Shown one piece after another: positions 5,912 through 51,740 of a stretch of 64,000 nt of DNA. Within the stretch, counting starts at the first letter, position 1. Each line of letters starts with the position of its first letter. The notes beneath the pieces are model-generated. The model saw only the letters and a program-made list of their open reading frames with translations, was not told where the DNA came from and searched no databases. The DNA lies in IMG/VR virus record IMGVR_UViG_3300019762_000007, positions 24,713-88,712 of that record. The stretch is one strand, 5' to 3'. The position numbers and the translations under genes were made by a program. The stretch is from a virus.

Positions 5912-8900
5912 TTAAAACAACTTTCTAGTAAAGAACGAATCTACTCTAGTTATGTCTTCTTTTTTCTCTACTACTATTCTATGCATCTGCTGTTTCTGTA
6001 TAATACATAGCATCATTGCAATAACACGGTCAAAGTTTCCAGTAGCATTATAAGTAGCTAACTCAGTTAAAAGTCCTACAGAGTAAATCCTATGTAAGTT
6101 TTTTACACCATCTCCTGCATCTGTAAGTAGCCAATCTCTAAGATAAATCTCAGCCTCTTCTTTTACATTCTTATTCATATGTTGACCGAGCTGTCTATTT
6201 ACTTTAGAATCTACATTTGCTTTAAGTACAGTTGGTGTAGGTGCGAGGTACTGTAAACTATTGTGAGATTCAAAGTAAGATTTAATATTCATCTTCTCGT
6301 TCTCATATAAACAAGTACCATACATATTATAATATACTAATAATCTTCTACAAGTTTCATAGAAGTCTCTAGCTAATGCAGGTCTTGCTGTGTATTCCGC
6401 TACTATCTGATCGTACCCTGATCCTCCTACACATTGCCTCTTCATAATAAAGATAGACCCTAAAGAAACAGAAGTTGCTGCTTTGTCTTGGTCATAAGGG
6501 TCACAGTTATGGTGTGATATGCCTTTAGATAGATATGTATGAGTCTCACATTCTAAGTTATAGACGGGTCCAGTATAAGTAGATTTAGTTACGTCTTTAA
6601 CCTGAAAGTATATGTATTCTAAGTCATTGCTAATAAAGCAGCCCATTTTAGGCTCCTTTCTAATAGTAACTATATCTTGTATTTTAGCTAATTTTATGTT
6701 CTTGTTATTATTTATACCTATTTGTAACTTAATCGTACTATGATGACTAAGTCTTAAGTGATATGTTTCACCAGTTATAGAATTTAAACTATTTATAGTA
6801 GCTGTTCCTGCTTTTCTTAAAAGGTTAATACTGCTGACTATACCTACACTAAATAATATATCTTGAATATCTTCTAGCAATTCTAGACTAATGCTAACAA
6901 ATTCTGTTATAGAATAGCCATTTGTATGTGTTGATATACATCCGTCAGAGTCTAAGTACCCTTCTAACAGTTTGAATTTAAAGTCCTCTTTTATATATTT
7001 AATACTCTCAGATATGTGTTTACCTTTTGCACCTTTTCCAAAAATAGAAGACAAGAAGCGAGATATACCCTCATGAGAGAAGGAGACTTCTACACAATTT
7101 TCTCTAGTTCTACTGTTAGCTGACTTTCTAAATAAATTCTCGATAACAGATTTAAGTCTTTCAATAGTATATAATTCTGTAGCATTAAGTGCTACAGATA
7201 CCCTGTTTCTACCTTTATCACACCAACCATCTCCTAACCACAATCCTACAAACCACCAAAAGTCGTCAGACTCTAGCATCTCTTCTGGGATATAGTGTAT
7301 ATTTAAAGGCTTTACTTTTCTATAAATATTAGGAAACTTAGACCACTGTCCCACAGTTACATCCTTAGCTTCTACATAATCAAAACTAAATAAAGACTCG
7401 TCTATAGTTTTATCTGATCTATAAGGAGTATTACTAACATATATAGGATGCTCCTCTGTAAAATTAGTTGTTCTAAATGTGTTAGACATTTTGAATCTGT
7501 AAGTAGGATGCTCAACTTTATTACGTATTTGTAGATTTATTATACTAATCTCTTCCCCATCTTTATTAATTAACTTATCATCTAAAGAGACCTCTTCTAT
7601 TGATTTCAATCCTGAAGTAGTTATAACCTTTTCACCAGGTGTTAGGCACCCACCCATATACATTCCGTATCCTGCTTCTGGTGTTGGGTGTTCCCATATT
7701 TGGACTGCTCCTGTGTTATCTGCATCAGGTTTTACAGGGTAACCACAAACTTGTAGTTTACCAGAAGTATCAGGTACGAAGTTTACCTTCCCTTCTGCGG
7801 TGGTAATTAGTTCTCCAATCTGTCCTTTTATCTCACCGTCTAAAGAGGCATTTACATAGCCTAATTGGGCACGTAAGTCCGCAACTGGCATAATACTACC
7901 TCCAGCTACTAAGAAGGCCTCTCCGGGGAATATAGGACGCTGTGTAAGCTCGTCATTATATGCTTTCTTATTATTAGCTTTAGCTTTAACTTCTCTAGCT
8001 CTTAATATATAATAAATAGCTGCTTTGTAATCTGTATTACCAAGTTCGTCTTTATACTGGTTGAGTCCCATCCAAGCAGGAATAAACAAGCCAATCTCTT
8101 TATCTGTCTCACCATAGTGATCCTTTCGGGCTACACATGCCCAAGCTCTAGGGTCATAGAATACAGAATAGATAGCTAAACTAGCTCCTCCGTCCATATC
8201 ACCTCCAGTACCTGTCATCCATAATCCTCCAAACTTCTCTCCACCTGCTACCATACACTCTCCTAGCTGTCCCATAGCCCCTAATAGATTATACATTAAA
8301 CCTATCTCGTCTAGAACTCCGAATATATAGCGGTTACCATTACCAGCAAATATATTAGCGTCAAAAGATCTATGTTGGATATTAGATTTAGTACCTTTAA
8401 ATTTCCATGTTCCACCTTCTTTAACTTTATACTCATGTCTAAAAGGATTCTTTCCGTTCCCACAGTCTAGGGAACCAGCTGTAAGCCTAGAGAAAGGGCT
8501 AGGGTAAGTTATAGATCCTACACTTTGAGACCCTACCATTTCCTCCATACCAAGTTTGAACTTTGATACAGTATCACCAGAATACTTAGAGTCAATAGCA
8601 CCTATTAATTGTTCTGCTGTAGGAGGCTTCCCTTGTGAATGGGCTAGCTTAGCAGCTTCATAAGATGTAACACCAGAAGTAATAAAGGTATATCCTACTA
8701 ATCCACTCATTGTATAAGACTTACCTACTCCTCGACTTTCGATATCGGCTAGATTAAGAGCCTCATTAAACATAAGTATTGTACCTAGAGGTTTAGTTTG
8801 GTATTCCCAAAGCATTTCATCTGCTGGTTTATACTTCTTATAAGTACCAGAAGAGGTAAGAAGGCTTTCATGTGCTCTGTCCTTGGCTCCTAGATTGCTC

Positions 8901-9349
8901 AGTCTAAACTTTAGTTCGAGTACATCTTCTTCACTCTCATTAGGATTTAGACCTTCTAGTGCTCTATGTGCTGAAAACTCATCATCTAATTCAAATCCAG
9001 AAAAACCTCGCATTTCATAATATAGATAGAATTTAATCCATTCAACGTCACGTATCTTAGGCCTTCCAATTACTTTACCTTTAATATCAGACTTATCGTC
9101 ATTAAGTTTAATACTCCAGTATTTACCATAAAAGTACATTGCTCCAGGAACCCACTTATGTAATCCTTCATGGCTTACCCAGAATCCATCATATATTCTT
9201 CTTTCTTCTTCTCTCCAATATAACTTATACTTTATTGATAAAGGATTAATAACTTGTACAGGGCCTCTAAGTACCTTATCTAAAGGTATTTTGTTTATAT
9301 ATAGAATCTTATCTATATTAATCTTACCTAAATATTCATCTACTGTCAT
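5912..9349 (-). CDS. terL: Terminase large subunit (TerL) containing an intein
   Basis: A 1145-residue precursor: 764 residues of terminase plus a 381-residue intein (568-948). The ATPase that drives DNA packaging has a variant Walker A (SRGVGKS, residues 205-211) and a Walker B (FGVLDEIG, about 343-350). The nuclease motif I (MYMGG-CDPYDQDKA) is interrupted by the intein exactly before its Cys, two residues ahead of the acidic residues. The start ATG overlaps the stop of the preceding 195-residue gene (ATGA). The gene belongs to the leftward packaging operon. Packaging needs the intein to be removed, because it sits in the nuclease active site. Confidence 0.9.
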   Translation of the reverse strand: MTVDEYLGKINIDKILYINKIPLDKVLRGPVQVINPLSIKYKLYWREEERRIYDGFWVSHEGLHKWVPGAMYFYGKYWSIKLNDDKSDIKGKVIGRPKIRDVEWIKFYLYYEMRGFSGFELDDEFSAHRALEGLNPNESEEDVLELKFRLSNLGAKDRAHESLLTSSGTYKKYKPADEMLWEYQTKPLGTILMFNEALNLADIESRGVGKSYTMSGLVGYTFITSGVTSYEAAKLAHSQGKPPTAEQLIGAIDSKYSGDTVSKFKLGMEEMVGSQSVGSITYPSPFSRLTAGSLDCGNGKNPFRHEYKVKEGGTWKFKGTKSNIQHRSFDANIFAGNGNRYIFGVLDEIGLMYNLLGAMGQLGECMVAGGEKFGGLWMTGTGGDMDGGASLAIYSVFYDPRAWACVARKDHYGETDKEIGLFIPAWMGLNQYKDELGNTDYKAAIYYILRAREVKAKANNKKAYNDELTQRPIFPGEAFLVAGGSIMPVADLRAQLGYVNASLDGEIKGQIGELITTAEGKVNFVPDTSGKLQVCGYPVKPDADNTGAVQIWEHPTPEAGYGMYMGGCLTPGEKVITTSGLKSIEEVSLDDKLINKDGEEISIINLQIRNKVEHPTYRFKMSNTFRTTNFTEEHPIYVSNTPYRSDKTIDESLFSFDYVEAKDVTVGQWSKFPNIYRKVKPLNIHYIPEEMLESDDFWWFVGLWLGDGWCDKGRNRVSVALNATELYTIERLKSVIENLFRKSANSRTRENCVEVSFSHEGISRFLSSIFGKGAKGKHISESIKYIKEDFKFKLLEGYLDSDGCISTHTNGYSITEFVSISLELLEDIQDILFSVGIVSSINLLRKAGTATINSLNSITGETYHLRLSHHSTIKLQIGINNNKNIKLAKIQDIVTIRKEPKMGCFISNDLEYIYFQVKDVTKSTYTGPVYNLECETHTYLSKGISHHNCDPYDQDKAATSVSLGSIFIMKRQCVGGSGYDQIVAEYTARPALARDFYETCRRLLVYYNMYGTCLYENEKMNIKSYFESHNSLQYLAPTPTVLKANVDSKVNRQLGQHMNKNVKEEAEIYLRDWLLTDAGDGVKNLHRIYSVGLLTELATYNATGNFDRVIAMMLCIIQKQQMHRIVVEKKEDITRVDSFFTRKLF
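6506..7648 (-). mobile_element. Intein with LAGLIDADG endonuclease in TerL
   Basis: Precursor residues 568-948 (381 aa). It begins with Cys (CLTPGEKVITTSG, splicing block A), has the block B T-x-x-H motif (TEEH, residues 631-634) and ends in ISHHN followed by Cys, so protein splicing by the standard Cys/Asn mechanism is expected. Two LAGLIDADG motifs are intact: FVGLWLGDGW (about 700-709) and LLEGYLDSDG (about 794-803), both with the metal-binding Asp, so the homing endonuclease is probably active. Splicing would restore GYGMYMGG-CDPYDQDKA. Confidence 0.93.
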
Positions 9350-12234: not shown

Positions 12235-12237
12235 TAG

Positions 12238-12265
12238 AAAGAGAGCGTAAGCTCTCTTTTATTTT
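12238..12265 (+). terminator. Rho-independent terminator
   Basis: AAAGAGAGC-GTAA-GCTCTCTTT, a perfect 9-bp stem with a tetraloop, followed by TATTTT. It begins three bases after the stop codon of the first early gene. Confidence 0.85.
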
Positions 12266-12275
12266 CACTTATAAT

Positions 12276-12294
12276 CCAGTACAAACAATTTCTA
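12276..12294 (+). promoter_or_regulatory. Copy 2 of shared upstream motif
   Basis: CCAGTACAAACAATTTCTA, differing from the copy at 11737 in two positions. It lies after the terminator and 62 bases before the next gene, where a new promoter would be needed. Confidence 0.45.
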
Positions 12295-12356
12295 TTGTTT
12301 AATAGTTTTTATCAAGCAATCAATAACGAAACAATCAATAATCAAATAACGCAACC

Positions 12357-12725: not shown

Positions 12726-12754
12726 GCCAGAAGTAGAAGAGGATAGAAAGAATA

Positions 12755-12786
12755 AGCCCAGATCTCCTTTGGACAGAGTCTGGGCT
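12755..12786 (+). terminator. Hairpin terminator
   Basis: AGCCCAGA/TCTGGGCT, a perfect 8-bp GC-rich stem with a 16-base loop, 29 bases after the stop of the membrane-protein gene. It is followed by AT-rich heptamer repeats rather than a clean T-run. Confidence 0.6.
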
Positions 12787-12818
12787 AATTGCTAATTGCT
12801 AATTGCTAATTGCTAATT
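12787..12818 (+). repeat. Short tandem repeat (AATTGCT)x4
   Basis: Four perfect head-to-tail copies of the heptamer AATTGCT followed by AATT, directly after the terminator hairpin. Probably a slippage-prone microsatellite in non-coding DNA. Confidence 0.9.
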
Positions 12819-12904
12819 AACATACTATTTATATCTTATTCTTTATGTATTACCTCTCTTCTACTTTCGGGGCTTAGTAGTTGTTGTTTCTTTTTGAACA
12901 AAAC

Positions 12905-12952
12905 ATACCGCAGCTCTCCTCGCTTGACTGTCGCAAGCTCGGTATTTTTATT
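12905..12952 (+). terminator. Large hairpin with T-tail
   Basis: Outer stem ATACCG/CGGTAT and inner stem GCTTG/CAAGC, followed by TTTTATTT. It lies in the gap before the next gene. It is a second possible stop for readthrough from upstream. Confidence 0.6.
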
Positions 12953-13004
12953 TACATAAACAAGCATTTTACTAACTATTTTATAACTAAATAACGAAAT
13001 AATC

Positions 13005-13974: not shown

Positions 13975-14000
13975 AGTTTAATTTTAAGTTATAAGTGTTT

Positions 14001-14057
14001 GATAGATAGAGTATTACAGAGGGTATAAACCAATATACCCATTTTACTCTATCTATC
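14001..14057 (+). ncRNA. Long two-tier hairpin RNA
   Basis: An outer perfect 13-bp stem GATAGATAGAGTA/TACTCTATCTATC and an inner perfect 7-bp stem GGGTATA/TATACCC around a 6-base loop, separated by a 7x4 internal loop. Much more stable than its AT-rich surroundings and not followed by a T-run. It may be a processing signal, a mRNA 3' end or a small RNA. Confidence 0.5.
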
Positions 14058-14164
14058 ATTAGTCTTACTATAGATTACTATAGCTTAAACTAGAACAATA
14101 GACTATTATCCTATCACGCTAAATTGCAATTCTAAACAAACTATTAATACTAATTATTAATAAA

Positions 14165-15727: not shown

Positions 15728-15788
15728 GGCTATATACTCATTAGGGAGTTATCTAGATTAGGTGCTGGTTCGATTCCAGCTATAGTCT
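15728..15788 (+). ncRNA. Truncated tRNA-like element
   Basis: Acceptor GGCTATA/TATAGTC (7 bp with one G-U), T8-A9, then CTC...GAG, and a perfect T arm GCTGG-TTCGATT-CCAGC (15764-15780). Only 15 bases separate the D-like and T arms where 22-23 are needed, so there is no room for an anticodon arm, and the total is 61 bases. It is either a decayed tRNA gene or a tRNA-like processing signal. Confidence 0.55.
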
Positions 15789-15826
15789 CTAATTATAATA
15801 TAAACTAATAACTAATAACTAATATC

Positions 15827-16210
15827 ATGACTAAAGAACAAGAGAAACTAAAGAAAGCTTGGGTCAAAGCCCATTTAGAAACTGCTAAAGAATATGAAGA
15901 AAATACACATCGTTGTACTGTTGATTATTGTAAGTTATGTATTACAGTTCGATGTAATGATGGCTCATGTAACCTATGTTCTCAATCTATATTTAGTGGA
16001 ATGGTAGGGTGTAAGGATAGACACTTAGAAGCTAAGCCTAGCTTCTATGTAAAGAATACTATACCTTATATAGAGTATCATAAAGAGGTAGCTAAACTCA
16101 TCAAAGACAGTGATAGACCTTTTAATAAGGATAACACTTTTACTGCTACAATGGGGAAGAAGATAAAACTATTAGATAAAACTATTTATGAGAAGTATAA
16201 CCAGAAGTAG
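15827..16210 (+). CDS. Cysteine-rich protein, probable zinc binder
   Basis: A 127-residue protein. Residues about 29-63 hold eight Cys (C-x4-C-x2-C...C-x4-C-x2-C then GC), plus a nearby CKDRH, suggesting two small metal sites. The ends are charged and helical. No known family recognised. It lies between two tRNA-like elements in the early block. Confidence 0.5.
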   Translation: MTKEQEKLKKAWVKAHLETAKEYEENTHRCTVDYCKLCITVRCNDGSCNLCSQSIFSGMVGCKDRHLEAKPSFYVKNTIPYIEYHKEVAKLIKDSDRPFNKDNTFTATMGKKIKLLDKTIYEKYNQK

Positions 16211-16251
16211 ATATAGATAACTAATCTGTGAGCTAATTATACTAATATATA

Positions 16252-16290
16252 TACAATAAACTAACTTGGAATATAGCTTGGTTTATTGTA
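16252..16290 (+). terminator. 10-bp intergenic hairpin
   Basis: TACAATAAAC/GTTTATTGTA, a perfect 10-bp stem with a 19-base loop, in the 120-base gap before the next gene. No T-tail, so it may act as a processing or stability element. Confidence 0.4.
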
Positions 16291-16330
16291 CATGTATTAG
16301 AGTTTATTAATGGTTTAATATTTTAAAATA

Positions 16331-16720
16331 ATGTTAGAAAATAAAGCTAGAGATATTATAGTAAGTCATGCAAGAGCCACTCTTACTAAAATACCCGTAG
16401 AAAGCGGGGCATGTAGATATAATTTCCGATGTCACAATAATGCTGTAAATGACGCTCTAAATAATAATCAAGATTCTATAGCAATGTGTATTTATATTGA
16501 TGAAGGTTACCCTGTAATTCATTTCATAAATATAGATAATGACGGAATATATACTGATAATACATTAGGAAGATGGAGTGAGACTGTAGAATATTTCTTA
16601 GTAAAGAAAATACCTAAAGTGGATTTCTTTACTGTTAGTACAGTATTCTCCGCTTATAGAAAAGAATTAAAACGAAAAATACCATTCGTTATAAGAATAC
16701 TTAACTGGTACAAATTTTAA
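16331..16720 (+). CDS. Hypothetical protein
   Basis: A 129-residue alpha/beta protein of unknown family with a basic C-terminal helix (YRKELKRKIPFVIRILNWYKF). It starts 4 bases before the acyl-carrier-like gene, so the two are probably co-translated and may act together. Confidence 0.5.
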   Translation: MLENKARDIIVSHARATLTKIPVESGACRYNFRCHNNAVNDALNNNQDSIAMCIYIDEGYPVIHFINIDNDGIYTDNTLGRWSETVEYFLVKKIPKVDFFTVSTVFSAYRKELKRKIPFVIRILNWYKF

Positions 16721-16724
16721 TACT

Positions 16725-17018
16725 ATGAAAATAGAGGATAAAGTAAAAAAGCTAATAGCTGAAAAGTTAGACTTAGATTCTGAAGATGTTAAAGCTATCA
16801 CAGATAAAACAACTTTTGAGTTTTTAAAAGCAGATGAATTAGATATTATAGAAATAATAATGGATTGTGAAAAAGAGTTCAATATTATTTTTACTGTAAA
16901 AGAAGATACTAAAATTGCTGGTACGGAAAATGCTACAGTACGAGATTTAATAGAAATTATTAAATCTCATTTACAAAACACCAACAAAGTTAACAACGCT
17001 AGTGACTCTAAAGAGTAA
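16725..17018 (+). CDS. Acyl-carrier-protein-like protein lacking the Ser
   Basis: A 97-residue four-helix acyl-carrier-protein fold. It aligns over its length: VKKLIAEKLDLDSEDV (7-22), TTFEFLKADELDIIEIIMDCEKEFNI (28-54) and ATVRDLIEIIKSH (near 78-90). In acyl carrier proteins the helix II start is DSL, with phosphopantetheine on the Ser. Here the codons GAT GAA TTA give DEL, so the attachment site is Glu. It therefore cannot be made into a holo form. It may act as a decoy or binding partner of host ACP-dependent enzymes. Fold is confident from the pattern; function is inferred. Confidence 0.75.
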   Translation: MKIEDKVKKLIAEKLDLDSEDVKAITDKTTFEFLKADELDIIEIIMDCEKEFNIIFTVKEDTKIAGTENATVRDLIEIIKSHLQNTNKVNNASDSKE

Positions 17019-17058
17019 TTAACTTTAGATAGCCTGTAATTCTAGAATTGTTGGAATA

Positions 17059-17131
17059 GGTATATGTAATGCTCAGTTGGTTAGAGAGCTACTCAAGGGA
17101 GTGGTCGTAGGTTCAAGTCCTACCATATACC
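17059..17131 (+). tRNA. tRNA-like gene with a shortened anticodon arm
   Basis: Acceptor GGTATATG/CATATACC (8 bp), D arm GCTC...GAGC with GG in the loop (17071-17089), and T arm GTAGG-TTCAAGT-CCTAC (17107-17123). The anticodon region is ACTC-AAGG-GAGT or CTACT-CAAGGG-AGTGG, so no 7-base loop with U33 can be drawn, and four bases instead of two precede the D arm. Length is normal (73 bases). The identity cannot be read. Confidence 0.5.
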
Positions 17132-17132
17132 C

Positions 17133-17223
17133 AAAAGATACTAGAGAATACAGTTCGAGGCTGTACCTGCTTTTCAAAAGGGCGGACAAGTAGCATAATA
17201 ATGGTTAATGCGCAGTATCTTTT
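17133..17223 (+). ncRNA. Possible circularly permuted tRNA-like RNA
   Basis: Closed by a perfect 10-bp stem AAAAGATACT/AGTATCTTTT. Inside, a T-arm-like hairpin TACAG-TTCGAGG-CTGTA (17149-17165) comes first and a D-arm-like hairpin GCAT...ATGC with GG in the loop, preceded by TA (17191-17211), comes second, the reverse of normal tRNA order. The outer stem then falls where an anticodon stem would be. The acceptor pairing is poor (two mismatches in seven), so the tRNA reading is uncertain. Confidence 0.4.
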
Positions 17224-17228
17224 AATTA

Positions 17229-17398
17229 GGACATATAAGCTCATTGGATAGAGCTTATACATATCAAGCGTAAAAAGTATAGATATACGGAGGTAAAGAT
17301 TGAGATACCTGAATAGACAGGCTAAGAACTTCCCATGATATACTCTCAATAGCTTCTAGATATAGTATAGGTAGTTGGTTCGATTCCAACTATGTCCT
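17229..17398 (+). tRNA. tRNA gene interrupted by about 97 bases in the anticodon loop
   Basis: Acceptor GGACATA/TATGTCC, D arm AGCTC...GAGCT (17238-17255), anticodon stem TATAC (17256-17260) with GTATA (17365-17369), 4-base variable loop, and T arm GTTGG-TTCGATT-CCAAC. Between the anticodon-stem strands lie 104 bases instead of 7. The extra RNA has its own helices: ATTGAGA/TCTCAAT (17299-17305 with 17344-17350) and CCTG/CAGG (17308-17321). It is too short for a normal group I intron. Identity cannot be assigned without the splice sites. Confidence 0.55.
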
Positions 17399-17442
17399 CA
17401 AATAGTAATGTGCTTTTTTAGTAAAGTACCTTATATACAATA

Positions 17443-17525
17443 GATAAGTATTTGTATACGAAATACTTATTGCGGAACATTCTTATATACGAATACAGGT
17501 AGAGCGCTCACTGACTGTATACGAA
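17443..17525 (+). repeat. Three TATACGAA repeats and a hairpin between tRNA-like genes
   Basis: TATACGAA occurs at 17455, 17486 and 17518, with a regular 31-32-base spacing. The first copy lies in the loop of a perfect 10-bp hairpin ATAAGTATTT/AAATACTTAT (17444-17470). Between the second and third is ATACAG/CTGTAT around GGTAGAGCGCTCAC, a string seen in tRNA D-arm regions. The 200-base gap 17400-17602 holds no gene. Confidence 0.5.
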
Positions 17526-17602
17526 AATTAAGAAGACCTTGACAGGTGTAGAAAATTACTATAGAGTTTATGAAAAAGGTTCTCTAAAAACCTTTATATT
17601 AT

Positions 17603-17755
17603 GTGCAAGTATCTTAATTGGTAAAGAAGGGAGCGGAAGTTAACTCCCTTAGAGAATTAGTATAGGCTTGAGTTCGATACTAGTTGGCAGATGACTAGAA
17701 ACATTCTCTGATCGCAGAACAGCGGAATATGTAGGTTCGAATCCTACCTTGCACA
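17603..17755 (+). tRNA. tRNA gene (Asn-like) with about 80 extra bases
   Basis: Acceptor GTGCAAG/CTTGCAC, T8-A9, D arm TCTT-AATTGGTA-AAGA, anticodon stem GGGAG/CTCCC (17629-17648) and T arm GTAGG-TTCGAAT-CCTAC are all perfect. The anticodon loop is 10 bases (CGGAAGTTAA; GTT followed by AA resembles Asn but without U33). From 17649 to 17730 an insertion sits in the variable region, with helices AGAGAAT/ATTCTCT and TAGTAT/ATACTA. Confidence 0.55.
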
Positions 17756-17775
17756 CAAATCAAGAATAACCAAAA

Positions 17776-17811
17776 CACTACCAACTGTGAAGTGTGTAGT
17801 GATTGTTTTTC
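17776..17811 (+). terminator. Terminator after the tRNA-like cluster
   Basis: CACTAC/GTAGTG stem (17776-17781 with 17796-17801), then ATTGTTTTTC. It closes the tRNA-like cluster. The remaining bases to 17990 show no gene; they hold a possible -7 box. Confidence 0.5.
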
Positions 17812-17921
17812 ATTTTGTTTTATACATGTACATTACAATACTATAATCCTCCCTAAGAAAGTTGTGAAACTAAACTGGGTAGTATAAACTAGAAGGATAG
17901 TTTACTTATAGTATTTAAAGT

Positions 17922-17929
17922 TAAATTTG
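17922..17929 (+). promoter_or_regulatory. Possible -7 box (TAAATTTG)
   Basis: TAAATTTG matches TAnnTTTG. At the proper distance upstream there is TTTA rather than TTTG. It would drive the gene cluster that starts at 18104. Confidence 0.3.
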
Positions 17930-17992
17930 ACTTTTTTCATTGAGTTTGATTATTGGTTAATTAGTAAAGGTTATTCTTGATTATTTTATTTA

Positions 17993-18078
17993 CCAGAAGA
18001 GTTAGAACTGGTTATAAGATTGCATTTATTGTACTAGGTACAGTAGACAGTTCTATAAAAGCTCTTCTGGTTTTATTT
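17993..18078 (+). ncRNA. Long three-tier hairpin with T-tail
   Basis: CCAGAAGAG/CTCTTCTGG (9 bp), then TAGAACTG/CAGTTCTA (8 bp), and an apical TGTAC-TAG-GTACA, followed by TTTTATTT. All the stems are perfect. It sits just before the 74-residue gene. It could be a large terminator, a 5'-UTR control element or a small RNA. Confidence 0.55.
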
Positions 18079-18103
18079 AAAATTTATATTTAAACTATAT
18101 AAT

Positions 18104-18328
18104 ATGAAATACGAAGATTTAGAGCAACATTTCACAGCTCCTAAAGTAATAAGTGGTATGTTTAGTAGTAAACGTATACCAAGAAAACTAAAGAAGAAAG
18201 TTAAAGCTTTTTGTTATGTACATTGGGAAGATTTAACTAATGGTCAGAGATTGTGGTACTACTTAGGAAATAGTAATAAGAGTTATAAAGCATTTCTTAT
18301 TAAACAACTTTGCAATAATTGTAACTAA
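18104..18328 (+). CDS. Hypothetical basic protein
   Basis: A 74-residue basic protein with a Lys/Arg patch (KRIPRKLKKKVKAF, residues 24-37), Trp/Tyr-rich middle and a C-terminal CNNC pair. It may bind nucleic acid. Family unknown. It opens a set of close-spaced genes. Confidence 0.5.
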   Translation: MKYEDLEQHFTAPKVISGMFSSKRIPRKLKKKVKAFCYVHWEDLTNGQRLWYYLGNSNKSYKAFLIKQLCNNCN

Positions 18329-18339
18329 AACTGTGTAAT

Positions 18340-18612
18340 ATGTTTGAATTGAAAACTAAAAGAAAGTTTAATGAGCTAATTTCTAGCGAATCCTATAAAA
18401 TCTCTGATTTTGAAATAGTTGAATTTAGTAAAAATAAATTTGCAATTAGAAAAAAAAATACTATTGTTTATAGGGATTTAATTACTAGTAGCGACCTTTA
18501 TTGGACAGTAAACGATAAATTCTTTGAAGATTGCCTAACTACTAAATATAAAATAATAAAAGAATTTTATAAAATAGTTCCGCAAAGTTATCTTATTATA
18601 AAAACTTATTAA
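18340..18612 (+). CDS. Hypothetical protein
   Basis: A 90-residue Lys/Ile-rich protein with alternating strand-helix pattern and no recognised motif. It follows the previous gene after 11 bases and shares its A-rich leader, so it is probably in the same transcript. Confidence 0.45.
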   Translation: MFELKTKRKFNELISSESYKISDFEIVEFSKNKFAIRKKNTIVYRDLITSSDLYWTVNDKFFEDCLTTKYKIIKEFYKIVPQSYLIIKTY

Positions 18613-18622
18613 ACACCTTATT

Positions 18623-18796
18623 ATGCAATATTTAATAGGAATTATATTAGGTCTTTATATTCTATATAAAGCCAAAAGAGCTAAGGATTATAACACTAGT
18701 ATTTATAAATCTAAATCAGATAGAGATGGAAGAGAGTACGGGAAAAGAGCTATTTCAGCTTGTAGAAGATCTAAAGAAGGATATAAAGAAACGTGA
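18623..18796 (+). CDS. Small membrane protein, 57 aa
   Basis: An open frame with a hydrophobic start (MQYLIGIILGLYILYKAKRA), then a basic tail. It starts 10 bases after the previous gene but overlaps the next gene by 71 bases in another frame. The overlap lowers confidence; perhaps only the first half is meaningful. Confidence 0.35.
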   Translation: MQYLIGIILGLYILYKAKRAKDYNTSIYKSKSDRDGREYGKRAISACRRSKEGYKET

Positions 18797-19010
18797 GGTT
18801 ATTACTGGAGAAAATATACCATTAGATAGGGAGATAAAACGCTCTGTAAATTATTACCTAGTTAGACATTACCCTAATCTAAAAGCATATAAGCCTTTTC
18901 ATGGTGCCTGTTTACAATGTAAATCCCAAGTAAATCTAGGAATTGGTAGATGTGTTGGGTGCAAGTTTATGGGAGTAGATCATGAACTACCAGATTTAAG
19001 TATGTACTAA
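18726..19010 (+). CDS. Zinc-ribbon hypothetical protein
   Basis: A 94-residue protein with a charged N-terminal helix and a C-terminal four-Cys zinc ribbon (CLQC at about 63-66, CVGC at about 76-79). Ribbons of this kind bind nucleic acid or proteins. Family unknown. It overlaps a small membrane-protein frame upstream. Confidence 0.5.
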   Translation: MEESTGKELFQLVEDLKKDIKKREVITGENIPLDREIKRSVNYYLVRHYPNLKAYKPFHGACLQCKSQVNLGIGRCVGCKFMGVDHELPDLSMY

Positions 19011-19023
19011 AAACAAAATAGTT

Positions 19024-19785
19024 ATGGCAAAAGTAACAATGGATGACTCAGAATACGAGTTATTAAAAGAAAACAAAAGACTTTTAGAAGAAGCTTTAAG
19101 TGAAACTAAAAGACAACAAGCTGAGATTGATAGGCTCAATAAAGAAAAGTTAGAGATTCTAGAGAACTCTAAAATGAAAGTAACTAAGGTAACTAGACTA
19201 GAAACTTATGAATCTGTTTGGATAGATCAGCCTGAGGTTTTTGCTTTAGAGCAATTGAATAGAAATCTTACGCGTCATTTTAATAGTTATGGTACAAATG
19301 TGTCATTTAAAAGTGTTAAGAGCGTAATTGATACTTTCTTTAAAAGAGTAGTAACAACTTCTGACCCTAAAATAGAAATAACAACTTTAGGACTAGATGA
19401 AGTTAGAAAAGAGATTAGAGAGGAGTTACAAAGTAAGATTGATTCAGATATTAAAGACAAATTAGCTAATGCTGATAAAGCTTTAGAAGCTTATTCTATT
19501 TTATCTAAAACTGTAGATGATTTAAGAGAGGAGAATTATAATCTTTCAAAATATAACTCCGACCTTATAGACCATAATGTAAAGCTCAAAGATGCTGAAA
19601 GTAATCTGAGTAAATTAGAAAGTAAATATCAGAGGAATTTAGATCTTCTTACTAAATATACATATTTATGTAAAGAGATCCTAAAAGCAACACCAGAAAC
19701 TGTATCATCTTTTGGTAATAAGGAAATTGTTAAAAAAGTTAAACGATTAATAGAAACAACAAGAACATGGAAAAACCTATTTTAA
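19024..19785 (+). CDS. Long coiled-coil protein
   Basis: A 253-residue protein: N-terminal coiled coil (residues 8-55), a globular middle (about 60-125), and a second coiled coil (about 125-235). It probably forms rod-shaped oligomers. No recognised domain. The last bases overlap a 23-residue open frame that may belong to the next gene. Confidence 0.5.
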   Translation: MAKVTMDDSEYELLKENKRLLEEALSETKRQQAEIDRLNKEKLEILENSKMKVTKVTRLETYESVWIDQPEVFALEQLNRNLTRHFNSYGTNVSFKSVKSVIDTFFKRVVTTSDPKIEITTLGLDEVRKEIREELQSKIDSDIKDKLANADKALEAYSILSKTVDDLREENYNLSKYNSDLIDHNVKLKDAESNLSKLESKYQRNLDLLTKYTYLCKEILKATPETVSSFGNKEIVKKVKRLIETTRTWKNLF

Positions 19786-19825
19786 AAGAAGGAGATTATT
19801 GTGACGGTAAAAAGGTAATTGGGCA

Positions 19826-20299
19826 TTGTTGTATTTAATAGCAGAAAAATTTGGTATCCCAATTAATTATACTGGAGAGAATCCTGATTATGTTATATTT
19901 AAAGAAGGAGCAATTTCCCCAATAGCTACAATAGTATTATCAAGAAATACATTAAAACTACCTAAATTAGGCTTTCTTGAAAGAATGCTAAATATGGTAG
20001 AAACTAAACCTATTAATATAGGTCCTTTTAAACCAGAAGAGTATCCTAGGATGCTAGTCTGGGATGATGTTGAAGAGTGTGCTGAAGAGAGAATAGTATT
20101 ATGTAATTTCACAGATAATTATAATTATCCTGTGATTACAGTTACTGATGACACTGAAAAAGAGTTTTTAACTTACAAAGAGTATTCAACAACTAACTAT
20201 AGAAACTGCAAACCTATTCCAAAAGAACCAGAAACAGTTAAGATGACTGTAGCTGAGATTTCTAAAGCTCTGAGAAAGAAAATAGAAATTGTAGAGTGA
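19826..20299 (+). CDS. Hypothetical protein, start uncertain
   Basis: A frame of 157 residues that has no ATG before residue about 50 and would have to start at TTG (19826 or 19829). A 23-residue frame MEKPILKEGDYCDGKKVIGH (19767-19838) overlaps it in the -1 phase and has a good ATG, so the gene may really start at 19767 and include a frameshift, or the short frame may be a leader peptide. No domain recognised. Confidence 0.4.
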   Translation: MLYLIAEKFGIPINYTGENPDYVIFKEGAISPIATIVLSRNTLKLPKLGFLERMLNMVETKPINIGPFKPEEYPRMLVWDDVEECAEERIVLCNFTDNYNYPVITVTDDTEKEFLTYKEYSTTNYRNCKPIPKEPETVKMTVAEISKALRKKIEIVE

Positions 20300-20353
20300 T
20301 TCTAAGTAACTGAACATTTAATAAATGCTTCGCTGGTACTTATGAAAATAATA

Positions 20354-20426
20354 GAGCTGTAACTTAATTGGACAAAAGAGGGAGACTTTTGACTCTCTTG
20401 ATGTAGGTTCGAATCCTACCAGCTCA
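20354..20426 (+). tRNA. tRNA gene with an 8-base anticodon loop
   Basis: Acceptor GAGCTG/CAGCTC (6 bp only), D arm CTT...AAG with TTGG, anticodon stem GGGAG/CTCTC (one G-U) with loop ACTTTTGA, and T arm GTAGG-TTCGAAT-CCTAC (20403-20419). The loop has eight bases, so it could be read as Lys (TTT) or Gln (TTG). An 8-base loop is known from frameshift-suppressor tRNAs, but a non-functional copy is equally possible. Confidence 0.6.
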
Positions 20427-20447
20427 CTGATTAAAGAAAATAAACTT

Positions 20448-20663
20448 ATGAAAATTAAATGTAGTAAATGCGGGGAAGAACATGAACAGACATTATCTAA
20501 CTGTTGTTGGATTTACTGTGATTGTGGTGCTAAAATATGTGGAAGTTGCGGATCAGAGGCTTTATCACAAATGGATATTTCAGAAGATGATGACGAAGCT
20601 GGTTATTGGTGTACACTTCAATGTGATGCCTGTGGATTAGAGGGATGTGCAATGTGCATTTAA
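20448..20663 (+). CDS. Cysteine-rich zinc-finger protein
   Basis: A 71-residue protein with about 13 Cys: CSKC (5-8), NCCW, CDC, CGSC (31-34), CDAC and a final CAMCI. It probably binds two or three zinc ions. The arrangement resembles RING or DnaJ-type fingers but does not fit one exactly. It lies between a tRNA-like gene and a structured RNA. Confidence 0.55.
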   Translation: MKIKCSKCGEEHEQTLSNCCWIYCDCGAKICGSCGSEALSQMDISEDDDEAGYWCTLQCDACGLEGCAMCI

Positions 20664-20669
20664 AATAAA

Positions 20670-20817
20670 TTAGAAACAAACCTATATTTAAGTCTAAGCC
20701 CCTTAAATGCTAGGTATAGAAGTTATTAAGTAAACTATTATAAGAGCCTTCAGTGTTCATACACTTACTCGTTCTAGAGTAGCTTAGTTTACAATTAATA
20801 ACTTCTATAGTTTCTAA
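20670..20817 (+). ncRNA. Structured RNA with a three-way junction
   Basis: Closing helix TTAGAAAC/GTTTCTAA (20670-20677 with 20810-20817). Arm 1: CCTA/TAGG plus TTTAAG/CTTAAA (20681-20714). Arm 2: a 15-bp perfect helix TATAGAAGTTATTAA/TTAATAACTTCTATA (20715-20729 with 20795-20809), continued by GTAAACTA/TAGTTTAC after a 2-base bulge, with an apical AGTGT/ACACT. It fills almost the whole 196-base gap between two genes, which contains no open frame. Confidence 0.6.
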
Positions 20818-20859
20818 GTAAATATTAAATAAGCTAATTATTAACTAATACTATTAATT

Positions 20860-21108
20860 ATGAATTTATTAAGCTACGTACTTATAGCAGTATTGTTTAT
20901 ATATGCTGTTATCACAGGTGTTTATACTTTCAAACAAAGAATAATCACAAGAAAAATTATTAAAACTAAAATCTCTGCATTAAATGCTGAACTAGAGCAA
21001 GCTAGAGAACAACAATCTTATTGTAAAGAAAGAGGTTGTTTGTATACAGGTAATTTAAATGATATAGGAAAAGAGATCAGTAACCTTAAAAAACAACTAC
21101 TATGGTAA
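20860..21108 (+). CDS. Bitopic membrane protein with coiled coil
   Basis: An 82-residue protein: one transmembrane segment (residues about 3-24, LLSYVLIAVLFIYAVITGVY), a basic stop-transfer (KQRIITRK) and a coiled coil with two Cys. Family unknown. A 27-residue basic frame overlaps its stop codon (ATGGTAA at 21102) and runs to 21185, just past the next start. Confidence 0.5.
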   Translation: MNLLSYVLIAVLFIYAVITGVYTFKQRIITRKIIKTKISALNAELEQAREQQSYCKERGCLYTGNLNDIGKEISNLKKQLLW

Positions 21109-21177
21109 GAACAAAAAGACCTAGAATTGTTAGAAAGAAATACATATTAGTTTATTCTACTGAAAATAGGAGGAAAC

Positions 21178-23664
21178 ATGAGTGATTTACGAATGCCGCT
21201 AAAGGTAGAAACTTTAGTGTTTGAGGAGTCCTCTAATAGCTTTGAAAATGTTAGTTTATGCGGATGTTCTATTGCATCTGGAAGGAAAGACTGTGATGAT
21301 ATACCTTGCGGACGATGTTATTTAAACGAAGATAACAGGAAAGACTTAACTAAATACCTAGAAGAAAATCCTTCTTTATATCCAAATATCCGAAAAGCTA
21401 TAGGTTTACCTAAAGAAGATATTAAAGATGTTCCTAAAGTATCTGATAAGTATTCTGAATATGATAAGTATAAAGAAGCTAGATTGAAGTTACCTATAAG
21501 TACAGCTATACATTGTAACTCTAGAGAAGAAAGAGATTTTATAGTATCAGAACAAGTGGAATCTACTTCTCCTTTTATAGAAAAAGGTTATATAAGACTG
21601 AAATATGGTTATGATACTTTATCTTTTGCTTTTAGAGAAAATATACCTGTGTATTCTTTTGAATCTTATCTTAAAGCTGATTTATCTAAGCCATTAAAGT
21701 TAGATAAAGACGGTAACATATTAAAAGACGAACCTTTTGTAGTTTCTATTGCAGATACTGCTACTGAAGAGCAGAAGAAAGCCAGAAGAGCTATTAAAGA
21801 TATAATGGTTAAGTGTGAGTTACAAATACAATGGGACTTTATAGTAGAGGATTGTAAAATAGATCTCAATGTAGCTAGATGGGGAAGGTATAAAGAAGAG
21901 TCTTATATAGACATTCAAAACAGAACCTATGGTAAATGTCGTGTCACTAACAGTAAAGTCATATCATTTGAAGAGTGGTTACATTATACACCAAAGACTG
22001 AAACTAAAAAAGAACCTTTCCACATGATAGGTGCTGGTAAGATTCAAGAGCTAGAAGTAGAAGGTACTATATATAAAGTTCCTGATATTAGAGGTGTAGC
22101 AAAAGGATACGAAGCGTCCTTAGATGGATTTGATGAAGAAAATTTACATTTTTGTGAAGTATTGAATATCAATAACTGTGTTGTAATACAGTGCAATCAA
22201 TGTATATTAAACAGTTCTACTTTCGGCTTAGATAAATTCAAATCTTTAATAAAAACTAATCCTAATTATGCTGATTTAAAACCTTTATTAACAAAACAAG
22301 ACGAAGATGATAAAACCAATGTTCCCTTGAAATCAGAAGTTAAAGTAGAACCTGTAATTGAGTCTGAAAACAAAATAGAATCTATAACCTCTAGTGATAA
22401 TTCAATTGTCAAGGATTTGAAATATAATATAGGAGATCTAGTAGTAACTGATTCAGGTATTATGCGGAAAGTAGTGGATATAGATAGTAAAGGTTACACA
22501 CTTCTAGAAGGGTCTCCGATTAAATGGAGAGATCATGAAATAGATCATACTCTAACTAATCTACTTCAGAGGAATCCTCATTTATTTGAGAGCGAATCTA
22601 ACTTTAAAGATGTGTATAAAAATTCTAGTATAAATGAAGAACCTATGAAAGAGAGATTTAAACCTGGTGATAGAGTTAAGGTTATTGCCAATACTAGCGG
22701 GCATAGATTTAAAATAGGCTCTATCATTACTGTAAGAGAACTTAGTGAAAACGACTATTCATTTAAAGAAGGAGTATGGTATTTAACAGACAAGGAGCTA
22801 GAGTTACATGTAGAAGATTCTAAACCATCTATACTAGAAAGTAAGTTTAAGGTTGGTGATAAAGTCCGTATTGTTGCTTGTACGCATAATCACGGATTTA
22901 AAATTGGTACTGTAGTCACTATAAAAAGCTATGGCTCAGATTTTTATAGTGTAGAGGAGGACCGTTGGGTGGTTACACCTGAAGAAATTGAATTAGTTGA
23001 AAGGGCTACTCCTGTATCTAATGTACAAGAAAGCAAATTCAAAATCGGTGATAAGGTTAAAATAGTTGCTAATAATTGCAGTCATTATTTCCAAATAGGC
23101 TCTATAAAAACTATAACTTTTGTCACATTTATAGGAAGTAAAAAAGGAGCTAGATATTATTTCAATAGGCAGGATACTTCTGGATATTTTGCAAAAGATG
23201 AAGATTTAGAACTAATTACTGAAGAAACAGAAGTAAGAGACCCAATATTATTTAAAGAAAAAACTTCTATAATAGTAGACTGTATAACTTATGATGTACC
23301 TTGGAATATAGACGTTAATATAACTTGTGATGTTGAAGATGGTTATATATGTGGGTGTGATGCTTCTTCAGTTTCTTGTACAAAGATAGAATGTGGTAAA
23401 TGCTTATTTAATTCAAATAACAGTAAGGTCTTTACTAATTTAGTTAAAACAGATTCTAGGTTTAGTATGTTTAAACATTTGTTACCTAAAGAGACTAAAG
23501 ATCCTGTTGAATCAGTTTCTGAAAGTATTAGTTTAGTTGGTTACGGACTACGGGGCAAATCTTCTAGTAGCTTAATACCAAAGGAAAAACCTATTAAGGA
23601 GTGTAAAAAAGAGGATAGTTTAACAACTTTCTCTCCAAGTATTTATAAAAAATTTAATATTTAA
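21178..23664 (+). CDS. Large modular protein: Cys-pair modules and SH3-like repeats
   Basis: An 828-residue protein. Three Cys modules at residues about 28-47, 324-341 and 724-741 follow the pattern C...C-x(3-4)-C-x2-C-x(3-4)-N and are each followed by a similar helix (for example FTNLVKTDSRF). Three SH3- or KOW-like repeats start at about 491, 555 and 619 with F-K-x-G-D-x-V-x-I-x-A and are preceded by a more distant one at about 420. Such beta-barrels often bind proteins or nucleic acid. An AGGAGG Shine-Dalgarno stands 4 bases before the ATG, rare in this genome, so translation may be strong. No known family as a whole. Confidence 0.6.
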   Translation: MSDLRMPLKVETLVFEESSNSFENVSLCGCSIASGRKDCDDIPCGRCYLNEDNRKDLTKYLEENPSLYPNIRKAIGLPKEDIKDVPKVSDKYSEYDKYKEARLKLPISTAIHCNSREERDFIVSEQVESTSPFIEKGYIRLKYGYDTLSFAFRENIPVYSFESYLKADLSKPLKLDKDGNILKDEPFVVSIADTATEEQKKARRAIKDIMVKCELQIQWDFIVEDCKIDLNVARWGRYKEESYIDIQNRTYGKCRVTNSKVISFEEWLHYTPKTETKKEPFHMIGAGKIQELEVEGTIYKVPDIRGVAKGYEASLDGFDEENLHFCEVLNINNCVVIQCNQCILNSSTFGLDKFKSLIKTNPNYADLKPLLTKQDEDDKTNVPLKSEVKVEPVIESENKIESITSSDNSIVKDLKYNIGDLVVTDSGIMRKVVDIDSKGYTLLEGSPIKWRDHEIDHTLTNLLQRNPHLFESESNFKDVYKNSSINEEPMKERFKPGDRVKVIANTSGHRFKIGSIITVRELSENDYSFKEGVWYLTDKELELHVEDSKPSILESKFKVGDKVRIVACTHNHGFKIGTVVTIKSYGSDFYSVEEDRWVVTPEEIELVERATPVSNVQESKFKIGDKVKIVANNCSHYFQIGSIKTITFVTFIGSKKGARYYFNRQDTSGYFAKDEDLELITEETEVRDPILFKEKTSIIVDCITYDVPWNIDVNITCDVEDGYICGCDASSVSCTKIECGKCLFNSNNSKVFTNLVKTDSRFSMFKHLLPKETKDPVESVSESISLVGYGLRGKSSSSLIPKEKPIKECKKEDSLTTFSPSIYKKFNI

Positions 23665-23691
23665 TTTTAATCATTTTAATAAATTTTAATT

Positions 23692-24168
23692 ATGACAAGT
23701 AAAAAAGTAGAAGTAGTGAAGGTAAAAGAGTTAACAATCATGGCTAGAATCAAAGCTAAGTTTGAAATGGGTGAAATGGGACATATCAACTCTTTCTTTA
23801 TTAAGGAAGTAGATAAGTTGCGTTCTGATATCAAAGACATTCAATGGGATATTGATACCCTTACTCGTGAATATGAGAAAAAGTCTAAAGACTTAGAATC
23901 ACTGGCTTTAACGGCTTTCGAAACTCTTGAAGCTGCTGCTGAAAACATCACTAACGAAGATGTTAAAACAGAAGCTGCTAAAAAAGCATTTGCTCCTAAA
24001 TATTGGAAAGGAGTAGAAAGTGCTGAAGCGGAAGTTAAAGCTGTAGAGGTTAGAGTTGACGAGCTTACTAAAAACTACAATGCTGAGAAAGAAAAGATGC
24101 AAACTGAAATCGCACTTCTTCAAAGCAGAGTAGATCTTATCTATGGCAAAGATGCTATAGAAGAATAA
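23692..24168 (+). CDS. Abundant-type coiled-coil protein
   Basis: A 158-residue, almost entirely helical protein with long heptad regions (about 40-75 and 105-150). Codon use has more C- and G-ending codons than its neighbours, as in the first early gene, suggesting strong expression. It is followed by a good terminator. Family unknown. Confidence 0.55.
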   Translation: MTSKKVEVVKVKELTIMARIKAKFEMGEMGHINSFFIKEVDKLRSDIKDIQWDIDTLTREYEKKSKDLESLALTAFETLEAAAENITNEDVKTEAAKKAFAPKYWKGVESAEAEVKAVEVRVDELTKNYNAEKEKMQTEIALLQSRVDLIYGKDAIEE

Positions 24169-24194
24169 ATAAAAAGAATATATAAATAATATAA

Positions 24195-24225
24195 AGTAAG
24201 CTTCTTAGTTGAGGCTTACTTTTAA
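24195..24225 (+). terminator. Rho-independent terminator
   Basis: AGTAAGC/GCTTACT with a 12-base loop, followed by TTTTAATGTTTTT. It lies 26 bases after the coiled-coil gene. Confidence 0.7.
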
Positions 24226-24235
24226 TGTTTTTATT

Positions 24236-24634
24236 ATGGTACTTACAGATACAGCAGAATATTGGCAAGATGTAAAAAGACATTATCCCTATACTGGACG
24301 TGAATTTTATCATATTCCAAATGCAAATTGCGGACACAGACATTTGCATGAAGCGAAAAGAATTGATGACGTAAATTGTTTTGCTTGTTTAAAGCTTATT
24401 GAACAAGGCTATGAACATGGGTTACCAAAAGGAGAGACGGACTTTAGAAGTAAAAAACAAAAGAAACGTGATAAACAGGCTGAGTTAGCTAAAATTGAAC
24501 GAGAAAAGCTTGGAAAATGTAATTGCGGCTATCAGAGAGTAAAAAGACTAAATAAATCAAAAAACGAATATTTTTTAGGTTGCTCCAATTATCCGAAATG
24601 TAAAATTACTAGTAGTATTTTAAATGTTTTGTAA
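24236..24634 (+). CDS. Protein with topoisomerase-type zinc finger
   Basis: A 132-residue protein. I chose ATG 24236 because the earlier TTG (24209) lies within the terminator hairpin. The N-terminal half has YHIPNANCGH...CFACLKL, resembling a zinc-binding motif of phage proteins. The C-terminus, CNCG...GCSNYPKC (about 98-126), is a four-Cys finger of the type at the end of bacterial topoisomerase I. It probably binds DNA. Confidence 0.6.
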   Translation: MVLTDTAEYWQDVKRHYPYTGREFYHIPNANCGHRHLHEAKRIDDVNCFACLKLIEQGYEHGLPKGETDFRSKKQKKRDKQAELAKIEREKLGKCNCGYQRVKRLNKSKNEYFLGCSNYPKCKITSSILNVL

Positions 24635-24698
24635 CAAGTGAATAAAGTTAATACTTTTATCTAGTAGTAAAAGTTAATACGCAACTAAAATATATTAT

Positions 24699-24805
24699 AC
24701 TAAGGTGGCGGAATTGGTAGACGCATACCTAGAAGCAGTGAAATGAAAGCAGTTACAGGTTCACAAGGTTACGGCAAGTTGCAGGTTCGAGTCCTGCCCT
24801 TAGTA
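24699..24805 (+). tRNA. tRNA-Leu-like gene with an enlarged anticodon loop
   Basis: Acceptor ACTAAGG/CCTTAGT, Leu-type D arm GCG-GAATTGGTAGA-CGC and T arm GCAGG-TTCGAGT-CCTGC are intact. The anticodon stem TACCT (24726-24730) pairs with AGGT at 24757-24760, leaving 26 bases in the loop instead of 7. The loop contains the direct repeat AAGCAGT (24733 and 24747). The long variable region (about 19 bases) fits a Leu or Ser class tRNA. The anticodon cannot be read. Confidence 0.6.
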
Positions 24806-25290: not shown

Positions 25291-25459
25291 GCTCCGTGTG
25301 AGGGAGACAATATAATAATAACAAGCTGAAATAGAAGGCTAATCTACTTCTGGTTCCTTTGGGGATAAGTAAGTTATTATTGGCAGCTAAATAGAGCTGG
25401 TTCGATGCCAGCATGGAGATTAAAATCTCATTATCTCTGGAGATCTTTATTTAGCCTTC
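25291..25459 (+). ncRNA. Structured RNA with a T-arm-like hairpin
   Basis: CTCCGT/ATGGAG (25292-25297 with 25413-25418) encloses AATAATAAC/GTTATTATT (25314-25322 with 25373-25381) and a T arm GCTGG-TTCGATG-CCAGC (25396-25412). GAAGGCTAA (25334-25342) is also complementary to TTAGCCTTC (25451-25459), an alternative long-range pairing. There is no open frame in the 276-base gap. It resembles a tRNA acceptor and T arm with a replaced middle, but no D arm is visible. Confidence 0.45.
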
Positions 25460-50894: not shown

Positions 50895-51740
50895 ATGTCA
50901 TTAAAAATAAAAGAAGAAAAAATTTTAGATATTATAGATAACCATAAAGTAGATAAACTTTCTGTTAGTGAGATTTCTAAACTTCAAGGTTTACCTAATA
51001 GTACAATATACGCAATACTGAAACGACGATGTGTAACTATAGATAAGTCTTGTACAGATAGAAGAATGTACAAAGTAAATGATAATTATTTTGATGTTAT
51101 AGACACTACTGAAAAAGCATATATTCTTGGTTTGTTAGCAGCAGATGGTTGCGTTACCTCAAGAAACAGATTACTTTTTAAGCTTGAAGTATCGGATATA
51201 GAAGTTGTTAAGTATGTATCTAGTAAGCTAAGTGATAGGCCTCTACAAGATGATAAGCGTATAGCATCTTCTGGTAAATTTTGTCATTCTGTTAGATTGG
51301 AAATAGTATCAAAAAGATTAACATCTTCTCTTTCTAAGTTGGGTATTGGGTTACATAAAACAAGTAATGAAATATTCCCTGACATCAAAGATGAATTTAA
51401 GCCTGCTTTTATACTAGGGTTTTTTGATGGAGATGGTAGTGTATCTAGAAGAAACATACCATTAAAGCGTAAAAAGTCTATACAAGTATACATATGTTGT
51501 ACTAATAGAAAGTTCCTTGAAGATATACAAGTATTTTTAGGGTTCGGTTCTTTGTACACAGAGAGGAGAAAGACTTTAGATATGTATACATTAAGATTTA
51601 ATTCTTTTGAAGATAAGAGAAAGCTTTTTAATTTACTTTACTCTTCACATGATTTTTACATGGAAAGAAAATATAATTTATATAGCAGTTATATTAATAC
51701 CGTGCTAAGCTACGAGAATGGTAGCCAGTGTAACGCATAG
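50895..51740 (+). CDS. LAGLIDADG homing endonuclease in the rIIB intron
   Basis: A 281-residue protein. N-terminal helix-turn-helix (KLSVSEISKLQGLPNSTIY, about 20-38), then the two LAGLIDADG motifs ILGLLAADGCV (about 76-86) and ILGFFDGDGSV (about 175-185), both with the essential Asp. It would spread the intron into intron-less rIIB alleles. Ends well before the 3' splice site, unlike the polA element. Confidence 0.9.
   Translation: MSLKIKEEKILDIIDNHKVDKLSVSEISKLQGLPNSTIYAILKRRCVTIDKSCTDRRMYKVNDNYFDVIDTTEKAYILGLLAADGCVTSRNRLLFKLEVSDIEVVKYVSSKLSDRPLQDDKRIASSGKFCHSVRLEIVSKRLTSSLSKLGIGLHKTSNEIFPDIKDEFKPAFILGFFDGDGSVSRRNIPLKRKKSIQVYICCTNRKFLEDIQVFLGFGSLYTERRKTLDMYTLRFNSFEDKRKLFNLLYSSHDFYMERKYNLYSSYINTVLSYENGSQCNA

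Follow-up and report, generated by a model that had tools for sequence, protein, structure and literature searches.

The 64-kb window analysed here (the whole stretch of 64,000 nucleotides (nt), positions 24,713 to 88,712 of IMG/VR record IMGVR_UViG_3300019762_000007) comes from a linear viral contig of 88.7 kb and carries a series of elements resembling transfer RNAs (tRNAs), designated e1 to e7 (Table 1), whose anticodon regions all depart from the normal form. The capsid, portal and terminase proteins of the window match phage families, and the relatives of its capsid protein are crAss-like phages; judged from these proteins, its source is a crAss-like phage. The elements sit in a plus-strand region of small genes adjoining the minus-strand structural genes, and every one of them falls in a gap between plus-strand genes. 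In the surrounding sequence 75% is coding, and the neighbouring reading frames are intact. Their spacing can be tight: e1 lies 11 nt downstream of a stop codon and 39 nt upstream of the next start, and e7 begins 6 nt after a stop.

To survey such elements independently of their anticodon regions, we scanned both strands of the window for T arms, defined as a 5-bp stem with a TTCRANN loop, a pattern blind to all other arms. Eight canonical T arms were found on the plus strand and none on the minus strand, against a chance expectation of 0.13 per window (mean of Markov-shuffled windows). Under a strict rule of at least six Watson-Crick pairs out of seven, an acceptor stem accompanies six of the eight; a 6-8-bp acceptor accompanies seven, and a normal anticodon loop none. 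Because this search misses elements with a broken T arm, good T arms are partly built into it, whereas the combination of good acceptors with abnormal anticodons is not. The 7-bp acceptor and the 5-bp T arm with TTCRA loop expected of a decoding tRNA are thus present (the acceptors of e5 and e7 have 6 bp), and a 5-bp anticodon stem with a 7-nt loop and readable triplet is absent from all window elements.

ARAGORN, proposed as a check by a first-pass annotation of the sequence, made a single call on the window (tRNA-???, 20353-20427) with an odd 4-base anticodon. Rfam tRNA matches begin at 20353 (43 bits), 24699 (40.8), 17060 (37.1) and 15728 (30.6), and no Rfam family other than tRNA matched the elements convincingly.

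The six elements of the first-pass annotation (e1 to e6) were all recovered by the scan where it had placed them, and its central description, good acceptor and T arms without a normal 7-base anticodon loop, is borne out. The irregularities it listed agree with ours in e2 (a 4-base or unreadable loop, here a UACUC/GAGUG stem capped by AAGG), e3 (some 97 extra bases, here about 100 nt flanked by TATAC and GTATA), e4 (a 10-nt loop plus extra variable-region sequence, here a domain closed by AGAGAAT/ATTCTCT), e5 (8-nt loop) and e6 (26-nt loop, on a 4-bp stem). For e1 it had reported no anticodon region; the arm is in fact present as a 5-bp stem with a 3-nt loop (AUCUA-GAU-UAGGU), although the loop is indeed abnormal. 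Two loci are additional to those six. One is a seventh element, e7, which bears at the anticodon position an A/T stem of about 10 bp with a head of about 50 nt; the other, 17133-17223, is a possible rearranged eighth.

In 17133-17223 the order is T arm, closed acceptor-like hairpin and D-arm-like hairpin, with a perfect 10-bp closing helix (AAAAGATACT/AGTATCTTTT); of these parts the T arm, the D-arm-like hairpin and the helix are clear. This arm order, and a closing helix at the place of the anticodon stem, recall the circularly permuted tRNA genes known from algae and archaea (PMC3978253, PMC3218864). Unlike in those genes, the acceptor strands pair poorly, at only five of seven positions, for which reason we dropped a firm claim of a permuted tRNA; the fold is unexceptional (z -1.26), and neither a bulge-helix-bulge motif nor a splicing enzyme has been shown.

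Table 1. tRNA-like elements and stable hairpins in the window (z, folding z score)
Feature	Position	Strand	Description
e1, tRNA-like	15728..15787	+	acceptor GGCTATA/TATAGTC; D arm CTC/GAG; T arm 15764-15780
e2, tRNA-like	17059..17131	+	8-bp acceptor; AAGG-capped anticodon stem; Rfam tRNA 37.1 bits; z -2.29
possible permuted tRNA-like structure	17133..17223	+	T arm 17149-17165; uncertain
e3, tRNA-like	17229..17397	+	acceptor GGACATA/TATGTCC; normal D and T arms; ~100 nt at anticodon position
e4, tRNA-like	17603..17754	+	acceptor GTGCAAG/CTTGCAC; 10-nt anticodon loop CGGAAGTTAA
e5, tRNA-like	20354..20426	+	6-bp acceptor GAGCTG/CAGCTC; 8-nt anticodon loop ACTTTTGA; Rfam 43 bits
e6, tRNA-Leu-like	24699..24804	+	acceptor ACTAAGG/CCTTAGT; 26-nt loop on 4-bp stem; Rfam 40.8 bits; z -0.63
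e7, tRNA-like	25292..25418	+	acceptor CTCCGT/ATGGAG; T arm 25396-25412; z -2.75
hairpin	12240..12258	+	gap 12235-12356, without tRNA-like element; z -4.69
long imperfect hairpin	12726..12875	+	gap 12726-13004; z -4.13
long hairpin	13984..14090	+	gap 13975-14164; z -5.73
long hairpin	16240..16305	+	gap 16211-16330; z -4.29
long hairpin	17990..18072	+	CCAGAAGAG/CTCTTCTGG; gap 17756-18103; z -5.03
long hairpin	20671..20815	+	closed by TAGAAAC/GTTTCTA; arms include AGAAGTTATT/AATAACTTCT; gap 20664-20859; z -5.17

Related phages were approached through the capsid protein: relatives were collected and 23 of the longer contigs, which in IMG/VR are often fragments, were examined in part or whole; a close relative of the window phage was not among them. 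Ordinary tRNA arrays occur in two (G017 and G040); other crAss-like relatives have few or no normal tRNAs, yet non-decoding elements are present. Contig G005 pairs a normal tRNA-Glu with a second element that has no anticodon arm, G028 carries a GAAA-capped hairpin in place of the anticodon loop, and in G050, where the evidence is weaker, a short form overlaps a reverse-strand open reading frame (ORF). Three contigs (G042, G051 and G043) have one element in common, located in a noncoding gap, and its acceptor in G043 shows compensated changes relative to the other two. Across the relatives' contigs 38 T arms were counted, of which 28 have an acceptor; shuffled sequence of three times the length gave 14, of which 1 has an acceptor. 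This count leaves out the array phages and takes in normal tRNAs and overlapping pieces. Among GenBank phages the region has no near DNA relatives, the only distant match being an acyl carrier protein gene, and the neighbouring small proteins, used as another route, led to none. An isolated crAss-like phage, Cellulophaga phage phi14:2 (NC_021806; host Cellulophaga baltica), has one weak candidate in a noncoding gap (L379, about 1760-1850; T arm at 1826), possibly tRNA-like, with a weak fold and an abnormal anticodon region; if real, it would offer a laboratory test system.

A much smaller version proved widespread in viral contigs. This mini element, of about 42 nt, consists of an acceptor stem, a D-loop GG and a T arm, has no anticodon arm, and has no Rfam family; contig G018 contains two, both full matches to the covariance model described below. 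We searched with a DNA pattern derived from the G018 form, in which the acceptor is followed by AATGGTTAAT and this by the T arm, and limited to the D loop and T loop; acceptor pairing lay outside every pattern and is therefore tested fairly. A full 6-bp acceptor was found in 178 of 289 distinct cases (62%), compared with 2.7% when the 3' strands were dealt randomly. A covariance model built from 26 cases in a 7-bp register has two-sided changes at all seven acceptor pairs, with 95% of cells paired and about 50% after a one-column slide, although this set was pre-filtered for acceptor pairing and the unfiltered 178/289 figure is the more trustworthy. Two related phages (L302 and L343) differ in one acceptor, where a C-G pair is replaced by T-A. 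The acceptor of the mini family is under clear selection, which shows that anticodon-free forms are kept.

The mini elements are found preferentially between genes of the same strand. They lie between two same-strand ORFs in 68% of cases, against 29% of random positions, and no more than 25 nt downstream of a same-strand stop codon in 31%, against 5.7% in the control; only 24% fall inside an ORF (control, 77%). In L343, a 17-kb contig, ten copies alternate with small co-directional ORFs, and the same alternation with small genes is seen in L302 and L353. Some bacterial assemblies likewise contain copies whose acceptors pair, Bacteroidota, Brachyspira and Corynebacterium among them, possibly in prophages. 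DNA similarity revealed no isolated phage with an array of mini elements, and the open-access literature yielded no anticodon-free tRNA-like elements in phages. Three further contigs (L313, L322 and L350) each carry, besides a mini element, an apparently related tRNA-like element of larger size, with a 79-129-nt middle domain and acceptors GGGCGCG/CGCGTCC and GGGCGTG/CACGTCC.

Both the window elements and the mini family thus combine a tRNA-like structure at a gene boundary with the orientation of the surrounding genes, the arrangement by which we would recognise an RNA of the t-element type. In plant mitochondria, t-elements undergo cleavage by RNase P and RNase Z and receive a CCA tail but are not charged, and they are thought to define messenger RNA ends by way of those two enzymes (PMC11658184). 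They likewise stand at gene ends, with acceptor and T arms retained and decoding lost (PMC11658184). The present elements differ in belonging to tailed phages rather than organelles, and their cleavage is a presumed one; the mini form, moreover, has only about 42 nt and no anticodon arm, and may alternate with many genes of one operon. RNase P is known to cut model hairpins composed of an acceptor stem and T stem-loop (PMC11143913). Mini elements retain just those parts, but are natural, include a D-loop-like GG segment and are sited between genes. The window elements share acceptor, D and T arms with ordinary phage tRNA genes, and their clustering among early genes, but none has a 7-nt anticodon loop from which a triplet can be read.

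We propose that the window elements are non-decoding tRNA-like marks at which RNase P and RNase Z divide phage transcripts, a reading to which we give even weight for and against. Since the retained parts suffice for RNase P and t-elements provide a precedent, we think that the window elements divide the early transcript. Under this proposal the acceptor-T-arm half, which tRNA-processing enzymes recognise, would be the part retained, in elements placed between same-strand genes of a long early transcript that is presumably made as one unit. Host RNase P would cut on the 5' side and RNase Z on the 3' side, freeing the element and separating the upstream and downstream messages, presumably to the benefit of the phage. 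Because decoding would not be needed, the anticodon region could be reduced to a capped stem, disappear or give way to other domains. The D-loop GG is part of the elbow of tRNA, and in the mini element it may let that elbow fold. We think that the window elements and the mini family are alike in function, as their architecture suggests, and claim no shared descent. The broader view, that phages use a minimal tRNA-like RNA as a dedicated RNase P/RNase Z cleavage mark between genes and that crAss-like phages have co-opted whole tRNA genes in the same way, seems to us plausible, if somewhat short of evenly balanced. A punctuation role had been among the suggestions of the first-pass annotation; the placement seen here and the covarying mini version alternating with genes elsewhere favour it, with cleavage presumed.

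If correct, a widespread gene-separating RNA derived from tRNA would mean that phage operons have a processing code resembling the mitochondrial one, and would explain the "failed" tRNA calls of phage annotation. The reason for the presence of tRNA genes in phages has long been debated, and non-decoding elements suggest another purpose for at least some of them. The mini element is also close to the smallest part known to be needed by RNase P.

Several observations weigh against this proposal. Four of the eight elements crowd into one 1.1-kb gap rather than marking one junction each; encoded CCA is absent and the discriminator bases vary. The window elements match the mini covariance model in the T-arm part only (best E 0.073). 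Furthermore, e5 and e6 are near-normal tRNAs that could be decaying or odd decoders, and the large domains of e3, e4 and e7 are unneeded for punctuation alone.

The near-normal state of e5 and e6 and the cluster of four make decay the main rival: a once normal phage set of tRNA genes whose anticodon arms drifted when the phage no longer needed them. We consider this unlikely, though a real contender. The relatives with normal arrays (G017 and G040) fit it, as do the grouping of four elements like an old array, the ARAGORN and Rfam matches of e5 and e6, and the bias of T-arm searches towards elements in which that arm is preserved. Decay sits poorly, however, with 6-8-bp acceptors at seven of eight T arms when none has a normal anticodon loop, with the stems of e1 and e2, which are neatly capped rather than broken, and with the mini family, in which clear acceptor selection indicates that anticodon-free forms are maintained. 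The first-pass annotation had held that the kept acceptor and T arms by themselves exceed random decay. That argument is too strong for a single genome because T arms were the search handle; the case rests on the relatives, not on the window alone.

A role as decoys or sponges against tRNA-targeting defences, not cleavable by anticodon nuclease, appears improbable. Phage tRNAs with altered anticodon loops do evade anticodon nucleases (PMC10264068), and the anticodon regions are altered in all window elements. The known escape tRNAs still decode, however, and an element that lacks the anticodon loop can serve neither as a substrate nor as a replacement where anticodon nuclease is concerned; a decoy of this kind could mimic tRNA only for acceptor-end enzymes, and its position between genes would go unexplained. 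Slightly less probable again is a class of structured small RNAs that join a tRNA-like module to a separate working domain, as bacterial Y RNAs do. The sizeable folded domains that replace the anticodon in e3, e4 and e7 would suit such a design, but it leaves e1, e2 and the mini elements unexplained, and the Rfam search of the window, taken as far as E 1, returned no Y RNA (a Ro protein gene was not searched for). Elements e3, e4 and e7 may have decoy or scaffold roles. Transfer-messenger RNA (tmRNA) also has tRNA-like ends and no anticodon arm, but the window contains no ARAGORN or Rfam match to it and no tag reading frame. True tmRNA genes are found in the crAss-like phages G017 (L100:7125-7514(-)) and G023 (L118:2776-3195(+)), and phi14:2 has one scoring just below the Rfam cut-off (L379:4031-4500(+)).

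We regard as very doubtful the idea that e3, e4, e6 and e7 represent interrupted tRNAs, with inserts removed through splicing by a novel type of intron or machinery. Normal arms do flank the inserts, a conserved tRNA-Asn insert of about 50 nt is common to two phages (L197 and L244), and in Prevotella an rtcB gene stands beside tRNAs with inserts. Yet the inserts of the window elements have nothing in common (e3 and e7 show no significant similarity), e1 and e2 have bases missing rather than added, no RNA ligase appeared among the proteins scanned, and the only group I intron match lies at 37309-37566, in the DNA polymerase gene, with none at the element sites. The 88.7-kb record, which may be incomplete and whose host could supply the enzyme, has no match to the RtcB family PF01139. 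For the window, then, the new intron type entertained by the first-pass annotation finds no support. A search for RtcB as a splicing partner covered 21 phage contigs, the majority of them bearing odd tRNAs or mini elements, and found none, its single match being a bacterial genome. Assembly or sequencing errors, conceivable in a metagenome contig without resequencing, appear extremely improbable, as neighbouring frames are intact, stems remain paired, and errors would neither gather in anticodon regions nor recur in independent contigs.

In Prevotella ruminicola KHT3 (L357:380-2257) and bacterium P3 (L367) an rtcB RNA-ligase gene lies directly upstream of three tRNA-like elements that have extra sequence within or close to the anticodon region as well as repeated TTACTTC-type motifs; these are possibly RtcB-dependent interrupted tRNAs. 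A match between e7 and a Prevotella insert was rejected (best p about 0.03 among many comparisons). The two phage tRNA-Asn(GTT) genes (L197:321(-) and L244 near 3062(+)) carry similar inserts of about 50 nt between positions 28 and 29, with the end GTTACTTCT, and its removal would leave a perfect anticodon stem. In several phage contigs, and in a single assembly from Bacillota as well (L187, L197, L220, L234, L244, L339 and L360), tRNAs or 3' portions of tRNAs are preceded by a recurring spacer (about GGCTATA..GTTACTTCTA or TTAGAGC..CTTATTTCTA).

Structure in this part of the window extends beyond the tRNA-like elements. Six other gaps contain long stable hairpins (z -4.1 to -5.7 against shuffles; Table 1). 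The early region looks like a transcript, presumably a single one, with structured RNA at many gene boundaries.

The phage is also rich in self-splicing elements. The long terminase ORF (5912-9349(-)) has an internal stretch matching endonuclease-type families, a probable intein, and the ribonucleotide reductase (53895-56852(+)) contains an intein-type LAGLIDADG insert. The group I intron inside the DNA polymerase gene is on the plus strand, as is a free LAGLIDADG gene at 50895-51740(+).
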